In this document: positions 31,660-40,793 of the stretch, piece by piece
How positions within the stretch are numbered: the stretch's first letter is position 1
Layout of the letters: each line of letters starts with the position of its first letter
The notes under the pieces: generated by a model
The model's input: only the letters and a program-made list of their open reading frames with translations
The model's database searches: none
Told to the model about the DNA's origin: nothing
Origin: Cyclobacteriaceae bacterium
GTDB lineage: Bacteria; Bacteroidota; Bacteroidia; Cytophagales; Cyclobacteriaceae
Direction: 5' to 3'
Length of the DNA stretch: 64,000 bases
Assembly: GCA_013141055.1 (NCBI GenBank)
Contig: JABFRS010000002.1
Span: 186,001 to 250,000, forward strand
Translations under genes and position numbers: made by a program

Positions 31660-32469
31660 TTATAACAATTCAGTTGGCAAAGCCTTCTCGCTCACCTGTC
31701 CTTCCACAACATCCACATAGTACGACTTGCTTTCTTTGTTGAGAGCGACAGACTTTACAAACTGTTCATTCTCAAAATAGATTCCTGCATTGTTATCACA
31801 GGCATATCCCGGAGGCAGTTCACCTTTCTTGATCAGATCCTGGTAGAGTGGTCTTCTTTGAACTTCAGCATCATAATGAGGGCAATGAGATCCTTTGATC
31901 CATCCAAGGCAATCAACCTTACTCAGCTTGATCGGCCTTGAATCGGTAGTTCCGCTTTGAAACCAGCAAAGCGATCCTGCACTTCCACCGGACATTACAA
32001 TGCCCGACTCATATGCTTTACGCAATGCCAGATCTATACCCTGGGCTTTCCAGATAGCAATCATGTTGAGCGTGTTTCCACCACCCACAAAAATGATATC
32101 CATGCCCATGATAGTCTCTTCAAAGGTTTTTTTGGTATCGTAGGAACCAATAAAAGTCTTCAGCACAAATGGCTTTACCGGAAGGTCCTCACAGGAAGCA
32201 TACCAATTGCTGATGGTATTCACGCTGTCACCCGTAGCCGTGGGAACATAACACACCTTTGGATTCTCCTTTTTTGTAAGTCCCATAATGAACTTTGAAA
32301 AACTTTTGAATCCGCCCCCTCCTGTTATGAATATTTTTCTTTTAACATCCTGTTTCATGTCGGTATTATTATCGTTTGGATTTGCTGAGGTATTCAATGG
32401 CAGACCAGACAGCCCCATGCCTACGGCCGTTGTAGAAACTGTCTGAATAAAGTGCCTGCGTTTCATCAC
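31660..32469 (-). CDS. Exported S51-family peptidase (dipeptidase E / cyanophycinase type)
   Basis: A 269-residue serine peptidase of family S51. The nucleophile lies in SGGSAGSLCWF (Ser163), with the supporting GGGNTLNM (129-136) and a downstream His in KGSHCPHYD. The N-terminus MMKRRHFIQT followed by a hydrophobic stretch looks like a Tat signal peptide, unusual because peptidase E itself is cytoplasmic. Substrates in this family are Asp-Xaa dipeptides or cyanophycin; here an extracytoplasmic peptide is inferred. It lies 24 nt after the M20 peptidase gene and is likely co-transcribed, giving two peptidases in one unit. Confidence 0.82.
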   Translation of the reverse strand: MMKRRHFIQTVSTTAVGMGLSGLPLNTSANPNDNNTDMKQDVKRKIFITGGGGFKSFSKFIMGLTKKENPKVCYVPTATGDSVNTISNWYASCEDLPVKPFVLKTFIGSYDTKKTFEETIMGMDIIFVGGGNTLNMIAIWKAQGIDLALRKAYESGIVMSGGSAGSLCWFQSGTTDSRPIKLSKVDCLGWIKGSHCPHYDAEVQRRPLYQDLIKKGELPPGYACDNNAGIYFENEQFVKSVALNKESKSYYVDVVEGQVSEKALPTELL

Positions 32470-32493
32470 AAAATATTTATTGAATTTATAAAA

Positions 32494-33813
32494 TTACCTC
32501 GGCTTTTCAGCCGAAAGTTTATCCTGTGTCAATCTGTAAAAAAGAATAGATGCCCGCTTTGCCTGCAGGGAAATAGATCGTGGATCTGCCGTTTCATCGA
32601 TCGTATGTCCGCCGGTTGAACGCAAACCAAGACCATCAATAGCCATGTCTACATACGCTGCTGTGAATGATATGTCTGCCGCACCTGCTTTACGTGGATT
32701 CACAGCCACTACCGTTCCTGCTCCTATATCCTTACTGACCTGATTCAGATAGCTCAGTAGCTTATAATTTCCTTCTGTCGGTGCTAATGGAGGGTATCCA
32801 TCATAGAATGTGATTTCGGCCTTTGTCAATGGGCGATGACGTGATACGATTGCCATCATCGTTTCCTGCGTCTTCTTTAGTTGCTCCGGTGAAATGGTAC
32901 GGATGTCTCCTGACACAATTGTCTGCTTCGAAACGATATTCGCTTTTCCATAAGCTGAACCTCCGTCCATTGCCTTATCATGTTCAACAGAAGATCCGCC
33001 GATGATCATTCCAGGGTTGAAAGTAAGATACTCCTCTCCTGCCAGCGCTTCATAAAATTCATTTAATATTCTGGAGGCCTCATAGATTGCACCGGCTCCA
33101 ACGGCTTCGGTAAATATCTGTGATGAGTGTGCTGGAATTCCTGTAACCGTCAACTCCCAGTTGGATGAACTTCTCCTTGCCACCACGGCAGTCTTTGGGT
33201 CACCGGCACCATCTTCAGATCCAATAGCAATGTCGGCGGCTTTTGCTGCTTCGATGAGATCATACCGTGCAAGATTCAATGGCTTTCCGCTAAGCTCTTC
33301 ATCACCGGTCATCACCACAATGATGTTCATATCCTTTAAGAGTCCATTGTCTTTCAAGGCTTGCAACGATTGGATAATAACAACGTCGCCTCCTTTCATA
33401 TCTCCCACACCTGGTCCGGTGATCGTGGAATCGTTGACCATTTTGAATTGCTGAAAAGGACTGGCCAGTTCAAAAACAGTATCGAGATGACCGATCAGTA
33501 AGAGGGTCTTTCCTTTTCCTTTGTGTTCGGCGACGAGGTGCCCGGCTCTTCCAAATGGTTTCCCGTCAACCCATTTCGTCTGAAAGCCAAGAGCATCCAG
33601 CTTCGCCCTGAATATCTGTCCTACCTTCCTGACGCCATCGAAATTCATAGAGCCACTATTGATGTTCACCACCTCTTCCAGAAGTTTTAAGCCTTCATTG
33701 TAATGAGCATCCACATGGGCCGTGAGTTTCTTTTCAACTTTGGACAGCTGAGCATGTGTAAGTAATGGCACAAAGAGTACAGCGGCGATAGTAAATGCTT
33801 TACAGAATTTCAT
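32494..33813 (-). CDS. Exported M20-family peptidase, glutamate carboxypeptidase type
   Basis: A 439-residue protein with a signal peptide (about 1-22, ending LTHAQ) and the di-zinc M20 signature: His109-x-Asp111 (IGHLDTV), Asp138 (GPGVGDMKGG), and the catalytic pair Glu172-Glu173 (TGDEELSG). The dimerisation lid domain (about 205-320) is present. Closest by eye to carboxypeptidase G2-like enzymes, which remove C-terminal glutamate from folate or peptides. Zinc binding and exported location are well supported; the precise substrate is not. Confidence 0.85.
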   Translation of the reverse strand: MKFCKAFTIAAVLFVPLLTHAQLSKVEKKLTAHVDAHYNEGLKLLEEVVNINSGSMNFDGVRKVGQIFRAKLDALGFQTKWVDGKPFGRAGHLVAEHKGKGKTLLLIGHLDTVFELASPFQQFKMVNDSTITGPGVGDMKGGDVVIIQSLQALKDNGLLKDMNIIVVMTGDEELSGKPLNLARYDLIEAAKAADIAIGSEDGAGDPKTAVVARRSSSNWELTVTGIPAHSSQIFTEAVGAGAIYEASRILNEFYEALAGEEYLTFNPGMIIGGSSVEHDKAMDGGSAYGKANIVSKQTIVSGDIRTISPEQLKKTQETMMAIVSRHRPLTKAEITFYDGYPPLAPTEGNYKLLSYLNQVSKDIGAGTVVAVNPRKAGAADISFTAAYVDMAIDGLGLRSTGGHTIDETADPRSISLQAKRASILFYRLTQDKLSAEKPR

Positions 33814-37249: not shown

Positions 37250-38755
37250 TTACTTAGGTCGAACTGCTCGTTTTACCAGTCTTTCAGGGACTGGAACGGG
37301 GACCAGGATATCCTGTCTTTTAGGAGCACGGGCTTTCAGATGGCTTGCTCCGGTAATGACATTTTCCTTGGTTCCGGAAATAATCTCCCTGCAGTTTGGA
37401 CTTCCGCACTGGCAAACAAATGGATCCAGTGTTTCGTCCAGGAATAATGCATAGTCAAGCGTGAGTTCCTCTCCAATGGAGATATCTCTTGTTGCTACCA
37501 CATTAAGACCCTGATAAGCAGTGTTTGGACTACAGCTATGGTTTTGAGGAGCCCAGTTGATAGGGTTTTCATCCCAAAGAATATAGACCTCTTTGCTGAT
37601 AGGATATGCATAGTGGCGGAAATCGTTCTTTTGCTTTTGGTTCCAGTTGGCTTCAACAAAGCTCTTGGAAACAATGCGTTGTGACATCTCTTCGCCCATG
37701 AAGATCACCTCGTTCTTGCGGATGCGGCGGCTTGCGGCGATACCGTAACCAGCAACAGAATTACCCTTCAGCACATACTTCTTCTGCTTGGCTTTATGAC
37801 GGGCAATACCTTCGCCGATAATGTGCTTTAGGAATCCGCTCTTTCCGGCAGGGTCATAGTTCAAGATATGATCTGCAGAACCCTGATAGCTGTCAACGTA
37901 GAATGCAGAGCATGTAAAGTTGATCTCGAGGAAGTAGATCTGGCCGTTGGCATCCATGCGGAAATCAAGTCTTGCATACCCAACTCCACCAAATGCAGTG
38001 AAAATCTGTTGTGTGGCAGTCTTTAATGCTCTTTCAAGCTTAAAGTCATGGCAAGGAACGTTTGATTCAGGATGAAGCTCGGATGTTTTGAGCGCATAGG
38101 TCTTGAAGTGGCGTCCTTTCGGGAATATGTATTCGACAGGCTTATAAACAGTGCAAGACTTAGCATCCTTATTAGCGGCTACTAGTACAGTAAACTCGCG
38201 GCCTGCGATGTATTCTTCTACTAAAATCTCAGGATATTCATCCAGAATGGCAGTGATCTTGGCACGAAGCTCTGATTCAGTGTTCACTAAGGATAGCTCA
38301 TCAACGCCGAGACTGTCTCCTGCTTTGGCTGGCTTGATGAACATCGGGAAGGTAAGCTTGTCCAATACGTCATCGATATCCTCCAGTGACATCACGTCTA
38401 CCGATGCTGGAGTCTTCACTCCTGCTCCATAGGCAACATATTTCATTAAAGGCTTCGGGGGATCGTATAATACCGGATTTGGACCGGTGTAGGGCAAGTT
38501 GAGTAGCTCGAGTGTGTGGATCACATCGATGGAAGGAACTTCCCATTCGAGGTAGCCCTCACATAAATTGACATAGATGTCATAACCTTTCTTGCTGGCT
38601 TCTTTCAACTGACGATAGGTCGTGAGTTTGTTTAAGAAGACATGATCAACAACATCATCTTCAGGAAGTAAGCTTGTTAAATCCCGAGCTGGATCGTAGT
38701 TCTTATAGTCTACGTCAGTTGTTGAATAATCTGGTTGAAGTACACAAACTTTCAT
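37250..38755 (-). CDS. Ddl-like ATP-grasp ligase fused to a SET methyltransferase domain
   Basis: A 501-residue two-enzyme fusion. Residues 1-320 are a D-Ala-D-Ala-ligase-like ATP-grasp: NLCEGY (63-68), nucleotide lysine in PMFIKPAKAGDSLG (Lys141), EEYIAGREFTVLV, and the metal-binding end motif RLDFRMDANGQIYFLEIN (Glu277, Asn279), then a Cys at 282. Residues about 325-460 are a complete SET domain: SVAGYGIAASRRIRKNEVI, NHSCSPN (405-411), GEELTLDY (428-435) and a post-SET zinc cluster CxC...C (448, 450, 455). The remaining 45 residues are basic. ATP-grasp enzymes join a carboxylate to an amine with ATP; SET domains methylate lysine with SAM. It abuts the preceding ligase gene (stop and start adjacent). 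Substrate unknown. Confidence 0.9.
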   Translation of the reverse strand: MKVCVLQPDYSTTDVDYKNYDPARDLTSLLPEDDVVDHVFLNKLTTYRQLKEASKKGYDIYVNLCEGYLEWEVPSIDVIHTLELLNLPYTGPNPVLYDPPKPLMKYVAYGAGVKTPASVDVMSLEDIDDVLDKLTFPMFIKPAKAGDSLGVDELSLVNTESELRAKITAILDEYPEILVEEYIAGREFTVLVAANKDAKSCTVYKPVEYIFPKGRHFKTYALKTSELHPESNVPCHDFKLERALKTATQQIFTAFGGVGYARLDFRMDANGQIYFLEINFTCSAFYVDSYQGSADHILNYDPAGKSGFLKHIIGEGIARHKAKQKKYVLKGNSVAGYGIAASRRIRKNEVIFMGEEMSQRIVSKSFVEANWNQKQKNDFRHYAYPISKEVYILWDENPINWAPQNHSCSPNTAYQGLNVVATRDISIGEELTLDYALFLDETLDPFVCQCGSPNCREIISGTKENVITGASHLKARAPKRQDILVPVPVPERLVKRAVRPK

Positions 38756-39907
38756 CTATTGTATTGCTTTATGTTTTGCCCCATAACGCGACAATGCGTC
38801 TTCGATAATCTGAATTATTAAATAAGTAAAAGATTTTTTTCCAAATCGCAAAATTGCACCGATGGAAGTATAGTCTTCGTCTTCGCTCAAACCACATTGA
38901 GCGTTGATCTCTAGTACGTAAAGCTTGCCAGTTTGTTTATCCATTCGGATATCCAGGCGTCCATATCCCATACCTCCTACTGACTTGAACGCTTGAAGGC
39001 TTACTTGCTTTAATGCAGGTATAAGTTCAGCTTCAGCTTCACGATAATCATAAAGTACTCCCTTATCAGGCAGTGGAGTCTCGTTATCATATGTTTCCCA
39101 AAGCCGGTCAAATGATAAGAATTGTTCCTTTTCGGGCAGTGACGCATGGAATACACGTTCCACTGCAGGGTAAAAATGAATATCATCAGGATTGGTAGAG
39201 GACCCAACTACAAAAGTTGTGAACTCACGTCCGCTGATGAACTGCTCAACGAATATGCCACCAGTATCCAGCTTCCAGCCATGATATCCGTTTTGCATTT
39301 GATTGAGGATTGAATTGAACTCTGTCTCATTGCTGACAACGTTCTTGATGCTGAGTCCCAGACTTCCGGCAGAGACAGCAGGCTTCACGATCATGACATC
39401 GCCTACCTCACTGAATAGAGTTGCCGGGTTGACTTTTAAAGGATCTACTACTTTCCATGCTGGTGTGGGTACCGAATGAAGGTCAAAAGCTTCCTTCATG
39501 GGGATCTTAGAGGTCGTAATGACATAGAAGAGGTCATCAGAACCAGTATAGATCATATCGTACTTATTGAGGGTATGGATGACAGAAACCCCTGGAATTC
39601 CATTCATTTCATCACCATCGCACAAATTGATGACGATATTGACCTTTGAAGAAGGATAATTTCTTATCCGGAGGATAACTTCTTCGATATTATCGAGCCT
39701 TACGTTCTCCCATTTCCACTCAACGCCTACTTCATTGAAGACTTTTGTGTACTCAGCAATACTCTGGGTGTAGTCGTAATAGTACTTAAGATTGGGATCA
39801 TCGGTAACGAGGAAGGGTGCCAGTATCCAGACGAGATAGTCGTCTTTGCTTTCCTGAAAGCTTACTTTATTCTTTAAGTTACTGGTAAAGTCTCTGGCTG
39901 TAATCAC
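38756..39907 (-). CDS. Ddl-like ATP-grasp ligase
   Basis: A 383-residue ATP-grasp protein, start GTG at 39907 (no alternative ATG before residue 101; an in-frame stop lies upstream). Motifs parallel those in its fused neighbour: NLCDGDE (94-100), Lys175 in MIVKPAVSAGSLGL, EQFISGREFTTFVVG (221-235) and RLDIRMDKQTGKLYVLEIN with Glu333/Asn335 then Cys338. It resembles Ddl rather than RimK or glutathione synthetase. Chemistry: ATP-dependent peptide or amide bond formation. The gene follows a 41-codon small ORF by 2 nt and directly abuts the ATP-grasp/SET gene, so the three are one transcript. Whether the two ligases act in series or as a heterodimer is not known. Confidence 0.85.
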   Translation of the reverse strand: MITARDFTSNLKNKVSFQESKDDYLVWILAPFLVTDDPNLKYYYDYTQSIAEYTKVFNEVGVEWKWENVRLDNIEEVILRIRNYPSSKVNIVINLCDGDEMNGIPGVSVIHTLNKYDMIYTGSDDLFYVITTSKIPMKEAFDLHSVPTPAWKVVDPLKVNPATLFSEVGDVMIVKPAVSAGSLGLSIKNVVSNETEFNSILNQMQNGYHGWKLDTGGIFVEQFISGREFTTFVVGSSTNPDDIHFYPAVERVFHASLPEKEQFLSFDRLWETYDNETPLPDKGVLYDYREAEAELIPALKQVSLQAFKSVGGMGYGRLDIRMDKQTGKLYVLEINAQCGLSEDEDYTSIGAILRFGKKSFTYLIIQIIEDALSRYGAKHKAIQ

Positions 39908-39909
39908 TT

Positions 39910-40035
39910 TTATATCAATAAGTTGATAAATAAGCGACCTGGGAAGAGAAGGGAGTCGGAGGCGCCGGTCAGGTTATTGAACCTTTCGATTTTTATTAAC
40001 GATGTAGATGAACCGTACGCTTTAACTATTGACAT
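39910..40035 (-). CDS. Candidate precursor peptide or leader ORF, 41 residues
   Basis: A short ORF (start ATG 40035, stop TAA 39910) not normally called. It begins MSIVKAYGSS and has a middle FNNLTGASDS and a hydrophobic end. Reasons to take it seriously: a consensus -7 box lies 30 nt upstream (40065-40072), it is the first frame after that box, and its stop is 2 nt before the GTG of the first ligase, the spacing of translationally coupled genes. It holds Ser, Thr, Lys, Asp and Glu side chains usable by an ATP-grasp ligase, and Lys usable by a SET domain. It may instead be a leader with no protein function. Confidence 0.4.
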   Translation of the reverse strand: MSIVKAYGSSTSLIKIERFNNLTGASDSLLFPGRLFINLLI

Positions 40036-40064
40036 GTTATTGACTTAAGTGTCATAACCTTGGT

Positions 40065-40072
40065 CAAATATA
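40065..40072 (-). promoter_or_regulatory. Predicted -7 box of the ATP-grasp operon
   Basis: On the minus strand this is TATATTTG, an exact TAnnTTTG. Transcription would start near 40058, about 23 nt before the small ORF. The -33 position reads TGTTATG, not a clean TTTG, so the other half of the promoter is weak. It makes the two ligase genes independent of the stand-alone SET gene. Confidence 0.55.
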
Positions 40073-40218
40073 AATACTTTTATTTATATCATAACATTCT
40101 TAACCAATTGATGCAGACTTTACTGGGTACTTCGACCTTAAAAGTCATACACTTTGGGTGTTCATACGTCTGATTCTTATAGACTTTTATGTTTTATGCC
40201 ATGACCTGACATAAAAAC

Positions 40219-40279
40219 AACCGGTATCTGCGAGTTACTTGAAGCAATACTTCAAGTAGGTGCGATACCGGTTGACTTA
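40219..40279 (-). terminator. Long stem-loop terminator after the stand-alone SET gene
   Basis: AACCGGTATC (40219-40228) pairs with GATACCGGTT (40264-40273), and an inner TACTTGAAG (40236-40244) pairs with CTTCAAGTA (40250-40258). The two perfect stems are separated by a small internal loop. On the minus strand the stem is followed by GTTTTTATG. It lies 26 nt after the SET stop. Confidence 0.78.
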
Positions 40280-40298
40280 CGGGTGTAAGATGAGTGAC

Positions 40299-40793
40299 TT
40301 ACTTAGCCTTTGAAGCCAATTTACCTTTGATGAAATCGGTAAAGCGGTAAAAGCTCAACACGTTTTCAGGTAAGTACTTTGCTCCCTTGATCATTCCGAT
40401 GCAGTTCTTGCTTCCACACTGGCATTGGAACGGTTGATCCATGTCCCACTCTGCTGAAGGATAGAAAAAAGTGAACTGTTCACCCTTTTCGATAGACTTT
40501 ACAGCGATCAATTGCTTGCGAGTCGTATCAAAAAATGCATTCGGATCACAGCTGTGGTTAATGCATTCAAGGTATTCCGGACGGAGCAGGATATGCTCAT
40601 GTTCGCTGATCTGAACCGTCAGGTACGTTGGCGTAGGATAGATATTATCCCAGTAGAAATCGGCAATAACGTCCTCTTTGCTAAAGTTCTCTTTAGAAAA
40701 CAATGAACGATGGCCGTGGGTAGCATCCGTTCTCTTTTCAGCAACTTCTGATTGAGAATCTACTACCATTGAGTTCGATTCATTAAAAATCAT
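40299..40793 (-). CDS. Stand-alone SET-domain methyltransferase
   Basis: A 164-residue protein that is almost entirely SET domain. Present: GHRSLFSKENFSKEDVI as the N-terminal SET strand, NHSCDPN (79-85, the SAM-binding NHSCxPN), GEQFTFFY (104-111, where the typical catalytic tyrosine is in the form FY), and the post-SET cluster PFQCQCGSKNCIGMIKG with cysteines 124, 126 and 131. Compared with the fused SET domain the NHSC and cysteine motifs are shared, while DY is FY. Predicted lysine N-methyltransferase, cytoplasmic. It lies upstream of the ATP-grasp genes on the same strand, with its own terminator. Its substrate could be the same product the ligases make, or a chromosomal or ribosomal protein; this is not known. 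Confidence 0.85.
   Translation of the reverse strand: MIFNESNSMVVDSQSEVAEKRTDATHGHRSLFSKENFSKEDVIADFYWDNIYPTPTYLTVQISEHEHILLRPEYLECINHSCDPNAFFDTTRKQLIAVKSIEKGEQFTFFYPSAEWDMDQPFQCQCGSKNCIGMIKGAKYLPENVLSFYRFTDFIKGKLASKAK

Follow-up and report, generated by a model that had tools for sequence, protein, structure and literature searches.

Paired Ddl-like ATP-grasp ligases and SET-domain methyltransferases form a conserved system in Bacteroidota that may make a short methylated peptide

Two Ddl-like ATP-grasp ligases and the SET-domain proteins encoded beside them form one real system, which is conserved in many Bacteroidota. In our reading, to which we give a probability of about 0.5, it is a small biosynthetic pathway whose product is a short methylated peptide, exported in many of its carriers. 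The locus was analysed in a window of 64,000 nucleotides, the whole stretch of DNA under study, from a Cyclobacteriaceae bacterium. Three intact genes lie on its minus strand, as the original prediction had stated, and the ORF list gives products of 164, 383 and 501 aa. The stand-alone SET-domain methyltransferase SETa (164 aa; 40299..40793) was assigned from the ORF list, Pfam, its match to BurB and an AlphaFold model. The Ddl-like ligase LigB (383 aa; 38756..39907), assigned from its ORF, Pfam and conserved residues, has a GTG start, and its stop codon directly abuts the ATG of the fusion gene LigA::SETb (501 aa; 37250..38755; ORF list and Pfam). Within the fusion, Pfam and the model place the Ddl-like ATP-grasp domain LigA, which carries Cys282, at about residues 1-323 (37787..38755), and the C-terminal SETb with its post-SET cysteines at about residues 327-465 (37361..37777).

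The spacing between SETa and LigB was at most 63 nt in 51 of 52 measured loci, and the window locus, with 391 nt, is the exception. RNA folding placed a terminator-like hairpin inside this gap on the minus strand (40218..40274), directly downstream of SETa and followed by a T tract. The fold of 40190-40300 reached -43.2 kcal/mol (z -8.68), which was matched by 0 of 200 shuffles. Since this gap and hairpin separate the two genes, SETa is probably its own transcript in the window genome. The hairpin was not reported by the consensus terminator scan, which has a loop limit of 8 bases, and the promoter and terminator consensus matches were no more numerous than in shuffles.

In the Pfam search, LigA::SETb matched Dala_Dala_lig_C (E 2.7e-23) and SET (3.2e-11, profile positions 1-104 of 105), LigB matched Dala_Dala_lig_C (8.1e-12), and SETa matched SET (1.1e-7) at profile positions 63-104 of 105 only. 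The AlphaFold pLDDT was 88.1 for the fusion and 93.7 for SETa. Because the confident SETa model aligns with a solved SET enzyme across 150 columns, SETa appears complete for a small SET protein despite the partial Pfam match. The catalytic residues of the ATP-grasp fold are present in LigA (K105, K141, E187, R262, D264, E277, N279) and LigB (K138, K175, E228, R317, D319, E333, N335), and in the LigA numbering they are kept in 31 of 31 LigA/LigB rows. The features of a SET-domain methyltransferase, namely the NHSC motif, the catalytic Tyr and the SET fold, were also found: SETb has NHSC at 405-408 and DY at 434-435, SETa has NHSC at 79-82 and FY at 110-111, and both have the post-SET cysteines. 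Judged by these residues and their conservation in relatives, all four modules appear intact, as had been proposed. The catalytic residues, whose absence the original prediction had named as evidence against one system, are conserved.

The genes were then counted in two genome samples. Among 194 genomes of one family, LigA::SETb occurred in 58, LigB in 59 and SETa in 58, with all three in 56; LigB was found in 58/58 LigA::SETb genomes. In the phylum sample of 296 genomes, LigB was found in 6, all of which had LigA::SETb, and 15 had LigA::SETb at E below 1e-100. At the cut-offs used, none of the 296 + 194 genomes had LigB with neither SETa nor LigA::SETb. The claim that the ligases and SET proteins belong together thus held, and the pattern named as evidence against it, ligases mostly without SET genes, was not seen in these genomes. 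The co-occurrence excludes a chance origin of the pairing, with p-values that count related genomes as independent. Moreover, SETa was distant from the ligases and still kept in 5 of the 56 genomes with all three genes, on another contig in G404, G379, G453 and G341 and 1.7 Mb away on the same contig in G292; seven further genomes had SETa without a ligase gene inside about 1.5 kb. SETa may be dispensable, since of 20 genomes that lack it at the locus and were tested for a copy elsewhere, 9 gave no match at E 1e-15. The six-frame recount of loci counts SETa from 120 bits, which excludes the 96-bit match of L130, and L037/L092 and L040/L124 are probably the same loci counted twice.

A stand-alone ABC-type membrane protein (ABC_membrane_3) occurred 25 of 25 times with the system and never without it. 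This fourth common gene is missing from 34 of 58 LigA::SETb genomes and from the window locus, and it had no match in the window genome at E 0.001, so the gene set there is incomplete. The cultured carriers Sediminibacterium goheungense (L093) and Lacibacter cauensis (L089) have all four genes in a row. Outside the family, an ABC exporter gene lies beside LigA::SETb in all 6 fully read loci of green sulfur bacteria, which also have SETa and a further SET protein (SETc). We assigned this genome set (f17) by the FMO protein, present in 8/8 genomes, which we take to be a marker of green sulfur bacteria; another set (f5) appears to be Chitinophagaceae-like. MAG contigs labelled Gemmatimonadota, Verrucomicrobia and Deltaproteobacteria, which could be misbinned, also carry the system. 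The original prediction had not mentioned the partner that resembles a transporter, the separate SETa unit, the Cys signature of the ligases described below, or the occurrence in green sulfur bacteria and in MAGs of other phyla. A phage or plasmid origin was rejected: searches of phages and plasmids gave no relative that spans 80% of the fusion, and 0 PADLOC and PHROGs families matched at E 0.01. In viral contigs the ligase had four matches, all of them distant and partial. The ATP-grasp genes of rhizobial plasmids, at about 30-33% identity, had no SET neighbour in the incomplete gene tables of 5 of the 463 matched records.

The ligases have the fold and catalytic residues of D-Ala-D-Ala ligase (Ddl), and they differ from it in several respects. 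On NCBIfam TIGR01205 (cut-off 245.65), the two ligases scored 90.6 and 65.0 bits, whereas a separate true Ddl of the window genome scored 335 bits. In the acceptor loop after the final Glu-x-Asn, the last position of the motif N-x-x-[C/P] was Cys in 31/31 LigA/LigB rows (Cys282 in LigA) and Pro in 56/56 SET-free relatives; by alignment the true Ddl 5d8d also has Pro there. In a tree without a true Ddl outgroup, LigA and LigB formed one clade (100/100) as sister groups, and therefore the system has two duplicated ligases. One row of this tree, intended as the Ddl of the window genome, was an incorrect ORF; its branch was very long, and it was left out of the later residue alignment.

Among solved proteins, SETa is closest to BurB of Burkholderia thailandensis, both by sequence (profile E 1.5e-22, compared with 2e-10 for the next match) and by fold (Foldseek TM 0.68-0.72). 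BurB was also the best SET match of SETb, over residues 406-464 (59 residues) only (E 4.4e-10), and the best of SETc, with a narrow lead (2.2e-10, next 9.9e-10). Another SET protein of the window genome had no BurB match at E 0.01. BurB (PDB 9L4T, 9L4V) is likewise a small stand-alone SET protein with post-SET cysteines, and its His93 and Tyr124 align with His80 and Tyr111 of SETa. In contrast, the window SETa has Gln120 and Gln125 where BurB has the SAM-holding side chains Arg133 and His138, and Asn79, an Asn as in canonical SET proteins, in place of Leu92. BurB S-methylates free methionine, and no ligase partner is described for it in the available parts of PMC12542666 and PMC7496086. By analogy with this nearest solved relative, SETa may use a free amino acid or a peptide as its substrate, which need not be lysine. 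The kinship does not give the substrate, because Arg133 and His138 are replaced and none of the BurB pathway partners is among the annotated neighbours of the system.

From the co-conservation, the residues, the predicted fold and this kinship we infer the product, step order, methylation site and export as follows. Both LigB and LigA would use ATP to convert a carboxylate into an acyl phosphate that is then coupled to an amine, and the two together would yield a di- or tripeptide. With SAM as the methyl donor, SETa and SETb would act either on the new peptide or, in the manner of BurB, on a free amino acid that serves as a building block, and the fusion of SETb to LigA would serve to channel the substrate. 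The methyl acceptor is most likely an amino-acid side chain, either a Met-like sulfur or a lysine amine. In carriers that have one, the ABC-type membrane protein or the ABC exporter would take the product out of the cell. This reading is favoured because the co-occurrence is near-perfect, SETa is kept even when apart, SETa is related to BurB and the transporter-like gene is found only with the system, with an exporter gene beside the fusion in the fully read loci of green sulfur bacteria; the ligases are also duplicated, Ddl-type enzymes act on free amino acids, the KamA-linked loci discussed below offer a parallel and no conserved small precursor ORF was found beside the operons. Against it stand the absence of the transporter gene from the window genome and over half of the LigA::SETb genomes, the replaced SAM-holding residues in SETa, the lack of BurB pathway partners among the annotated neighbours, the narrow SETc lead, the short SETb match, the distance of the KamA-linked relatives discussed below, the possible dispensability of SETa, and the neighbours of one fusion (G211), which also fit modification of a protein tail.

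A narrower form of the peptide reading, whose probability lies inside that given above and does not add to it, has SETa, and perhaps SETb, make S-methylmethionine or a related sulfonium that the ligases join to an amino acid. All three SET proteins score BurB best among solved SETs, and the fold agrees for SETa. We nevertheless think it improbable, given the replaced SAM-holding residues, the Asn in place of Leu92, the narrow SETc lead and the lack of linked methionine genes among those seen; BurB is possibly just the nearest bacterial SET of such shape in the PDB. It is unlikely, if slightly less so, that the system modifies proteins, an option that the original prediction had raised. The ligases would then extend a protein at its terminus or a side chain by at least one amino acid, and the SET domains would methylate a lysine of this tag or of the target. 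Protein lysines are the substrates of most SET enzymes that have been characterised, and RimK and TTL, which belong to other ATP-grasp subfamilies, attach tags to proteins. The G211 fusion lies near genes for FGase, MATCAP (a family named after tubulin tyrosine carboxypeptidases) and a GSH-synthetase-like protein. However, MATCAP was seen at this one fusion locus only, the nearest gene there (FGase) is 441 nt off, and no conserved target-protein gene stands beside the system at the loci read. Ddl-type ligases also use free amino acids as substrates, and the nearest SET relative methylates free Met. Human TTLL12, which joins SET-like and TTL domains, would be a precedent, but according to PMC3520985 it is reversed in order, lacks critical residues and was reported inactive in vitro.

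A RiPP pathway, in which the enzymes would modify a genetically encoded precursor peptide, is very improbable. ATP-grasp enzymes with an ABC exporter are typical of graspetide pathways, but the ligases here are Ddl-like in sequence and fold. A comparison of the 615 small ORFs found up to 2 kb from the operons gave just two groups common to at least 4 loci (6 and 5 loci), and these lie upstream of the operons in mutual overlap on opposite strands. A RiPP precursor adjoining the operons was rejected on this comparison, which would miss one that is shorter than 20 aa or encoded at a distance. Synthesis of modified D-amino-acid peptides for peptidoglycan, which the Ddl fold and family would fit, is most improbable: the presence of the system is patchy, and no cell-wall gene was found among the window neighbours scanned. 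The separate true Ddl and the change of the acceptor loop from Asn-x-x-Pro to Asn-x-x-Cys led us to reject a cell-wall Ddl identity, in agreement with the doubt that the original prediction had expressed.

We put forward tentatively, at somewhat less than even odds, that these genes represent a widespread class of non-ribosomal peptides in several phyla, built by paired Ddl-type ligases and SET-fold (class V) methylation, with the first fusion known to us of an active SET domain and a peptide ligase. Bacteria would then use SET domains, whose main known role is histone modification, as tools for making peptides. Before BurB, methyltransferases that modify natural products were found exclusively in classes I and III, according to PMC7496086 (2020). 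A small-molecule product would be a second, much more widespread metabolic use of SET enzymes, and would advise caution with the label 'protein-lysine N-methyltransferase', which distant SETa relatives carry in 7 of 8 plasmid records. LigA::SETb offers a fused ligase-methyltransferase that is open to direct assay.

No description of a bacterial ligase-SET pairing was present among the literature matches listed. TTLL12 shares with the fusion the presence of both domain types in one protein, and differs in having the opposite domain order and TTL in place of Ddl (PMC3520985). Also comparable are SET-free relative loci from other genomes of the phylum, of which we compared 47, taken from the top of the match list rather than at random and including some genomes twice. 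A gene of the lysine-2,3-aminomutase family (KamA) was present in 22 of the 47, and 11 of these 22 were arranged as two ligases, a GNAT gene and KamA. Their ligases are distant relatives (a branch of 2.13 to LigA/LigB in the tree without a true Ddl outgroup), fall in separate clades, and have Pro rather than Cys. These loci nevertheless show the same pairing of two adjacent ligases with tailoring enzymes, and thus two Ddl-like ligases with amino-acid-tailoring enzymes recur.

The three intact minus-strand genes of the original prediction were recovered as open reading frames: SETa (40299-40793, 164 aa), a stand-alone SET protein; LigB (38756-39907, 383 aa), a Ddl-like ATP-grasp protein; and LigA::SETb (37250-38755, 501 aa). 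The domain search also confirmed the claimed ATP-grasp domains and, in the fusion, a complete second SET domain behind the Ddl-like one. The stop codon of LigB is followed at once by the ATG of the fusion, so that these genes abut, while SETa lies 391 nt upstream of LigB, with a strong terminator-like hairpin (z -8.68, RNA folding) at its 3' side. Structure prediction, as proposed earlier, gave confident AlphaFold models; all 50 fold matches listed for the fusion were Ddl-type ligases, and the top three for SETa were chains of BurB, a solved SET enzyme of Burkholderia thailandensis. The system is flanked upstream by tex and downstream by DUF5916/CBM9, DUF3995, M20 peptidase and S51 peptidase genes. 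The two peptidase genes (31660-33813, same strand) recurred in fewer than three other loci, and no other window gene between 30000 and 50000 recurred in three or more of the compared loci. Three further stand-alone SET genes were seen in the genome beyond the window (C1:2919880, C1:863449 and C2:96367).

The ligase and SET genes form one system, as had been proposed. Of 296 genomes sampled from the phylum, 15 carried LigA::SETb (E below 1e-100), and LigB (E to 1e-60) turned up in 6 of these 15. SETa (E to 1e-15) was likewise present in 15, 14 of which had the fusion. The exceptions were G259, which had a weak SETa match (2e-28) without the fusion, and G211, which had the fusion without SETa. 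In 194 genomes of the family to which G115 belongs, by inference Chitinophagaceae-like, the fusion, LigB and SETa were present in 58, 59 and 58, respectively, and all three in 56. As for the exceptions there, G419 had no fusion and its LigB was cut by a contig end, G425 and G441 were without SETa and their LigB started at most 100 bases from a contig end, and SETa alone in G421 was unexplained. The search across Bacteroidota thus bore out the co-occurrence, but the system is patchy within the window's own family, because the fusion was absent from the sole other genome of the genus in the sample (G146) and from six other family members, of which G049, G076, G111, G186 and G194 gave no match at all and G273 a distant ligase match only.

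SETa and the ligases were on separate contigs in G404, G379, G453 and G341. For G379, G453 and G341, the ligase contig extends 16 kb or more 5' of LigB, so SETa was not merely cut off in these three. In G292, SETa was about 1.7 Mb from the ligases on the same contig. Twenty genomes without SETa at the locus in the ORF scan were searched again, and 11 gave matches: in G486 (locus L106) SETa was linked to the ligases after all, in G498 it adjoined LigB away from the fusion locus L066, which has neither, in eight including G292 it was found (E below 1e-60), the surrounding 1.5 kb or so being free of ligase genes, and in G496 the match was weak (4e-26). No SETa was detected at E 1e-15 in the other nine, some of which are small or incomplete. 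The retention of SETa without linkage argues for a joint function with the ligases.

A six-frame recount found the fusion's ligase domain in 94 of 94 compared loci, at least two of which were counted twice. Within about 4.5 kb, LigB was present in 71 and SETa in 56 of the 82 loci with at least 2.6 kb upstream; the 11 without LigB were seven green-sulfur-bacterial loci, L045 (G211), L066 (G498) and L040/L124 (G212, where LigB and SETa sit together on another contig, L049). The ORF-based median spacing was 6 nt between SETa and LigB (n = 52) and 10 nt between LigB and LigA (n = 79). The window's 391 nt is the maximum among the SETa-LigB spacings. In G498 (L212 and L066) and G212 (L049 and L040), LigB and SETa share one locus and LigA::SETb occupies a second, so the set can persist as two separate units. 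A gene for a protein of some 300 aa lay at most 218 nt downstream in 36 of 82 loci with enough sequence (36 of 84 in the ORF-based count). The one member scanned matched the ABC transmembrane families PF13748 (9.9e-45) and, weakly, PF00664, with no ATPase domain. The ABC-type membrane protein occurred in 25 of the 194 genomes (E to 1e-30), all system-positive (24 with the fusion, one with LigB and SETa), and had no match in the window's genome.

The FMO protein, which we take to mark green sulfur bacteria, was present in 8/8 genomes of one group, in which a search at E 1e-60 did not detect LigB. Six loci seen in full there (L041-L044, L046 and L047) carried SETa, LigA::SETb, an ABC exporter and a third SET protein, with domains called by Pfam for L041 and by homology to L041 for the others. 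This SETc (L041:11727-12089, L042:12756-13112; 118-120 aa) follows the exporter and is shorter than SETa. A contig end falls inside the fusion at L048, and two SET matches flanking the fusion were seen in G260. There were at least 80 matching loci, and the named carriers among those listed include Sediminibacterium goheungense, Lacibacter cauensis, L. luteus and Ferruginibacter paludis, all of them in culture, as well as MAGs labelled Emticicia, Gemmatimonadota, Verrucomicrobia and Deltaproteobacteria.

An 88-row tree placed LigA (18) and LigB (13) in one group each and both groups in a joint clade (100/100), indicating that they are duplicates within the system. The predicted intact ATP-grasp motifs were upheld, with catalytic residues conserved in 31/31 LigA/LigB rows and alike in true Ddl, a separate copy of which the window's genome encodes. 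The loop after Glu-x-Asn was Asn-x-x-Cys in all 31 and Asn-x-x-Pro in 56/56 sampled SET-free rows. By homology, this loop sits where the Ddl site receives its acceptor, so LigA and LigB probably use a substrate other than D-Ala. Among 47 SET-free loci from the top of the fusion-search match list in the phylum (L157, with a SETa-like gene and no ligase, set aside), a gene of the KamA (lysine 2,3-aminomutase) family lay near the ligase in 22 and was absent in 25, and 11 had the order two ligases, GNAT, KamA. This second recurrent two-ligase row was seen at L156, L158, L159, L160, L169 and L177, and also at L188, L191, L198, L199 and L202; no description of it was among the literature matches listed. 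These rows likewise have two Ddl-like ligases, but lack SET and carry the loop Pro instead of Cys. KamA hints at lysine-like amino acids as substrates in this wider group; NCBIfam models of lysine, glutamate and arginine aminomutases were not told apart for two members, and the branch to LigA/LigB is long.

Among solved proteins, SETa matched BurB best by single sequence (9.1e-13, next 6.7e-6), by profile (1.5e-22, next 2e-10) and by fold (4.5e-9, first other protein 3.6e-7). BurB was also the best SET match of SETb, across 59 residues, and of SETc by a narrow lead (2.2e-10 vs 9.9e-10). As a control, one of the three other stand-alone SET genes of the window's genome (L050) was compared and found to match other solved proteins and not BurB, a comparison in which post-SET cysteines, where L050 may differ from SETa, favour BurB-type matches. 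BurB S-methylates free methionine and was inactive on two related acids (PMC12542666, PMC7496086). It holds Met by main-chain atoms (PMC12542666), so Met binding is not readable from sequence. At the positions of Arg133 and His138, through which BurB contacts SAM, SETa has Gln, whereas the canonical Asn is present in SETa and absent in BurB. Judged from kinship to BurB, a small-molecule substrate appears more likely for the SET enzymes than the family name suggests.

The best reading is that the ligases would make a peptide, that the SET enzymes would methylate its building blocks or the peptide itself, and that the product would be exported in many carriers; the gene set, residues, predicted fold and co-occurrence are observed here, and each chemical step is inferred. 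Tagging of a protein by the ligases and SET is also possible and would fit G211 (L045:5041-13099), where the fusion lies on one strand between a gamma-glutamyltranspeptidase gene (501 nt off) and a row of FGase, MATCAP (QEGLA) and glutathione-synthetase-like genes (441 nt off). Separately, in G259 (L157:6237-8520) a gamma-glutamyltranspeptidase gene was observed 118 nt from the SETa-like gene (E 2e-28) and in the same orientation; no LigA/LigB-type ligase adjoins the latter.

No bacterial pairing of SET with ATP-grasp or Ddl was described among the literature matches listed in the open library; a paper on human TTLL12, which has both domains, was among them (PMC3520985). A review of bacterial SET proteins links Chlorobium SET genes to ancient gene transfer and refers neither to ATP-grasp nor to operons (PMC3980110). 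The system of ligases and SET enzymes is real, widespread and uncharacterised. Peptide pathways that combine a ligase with a methyltransferase are already known, and the new element here is the SET component.
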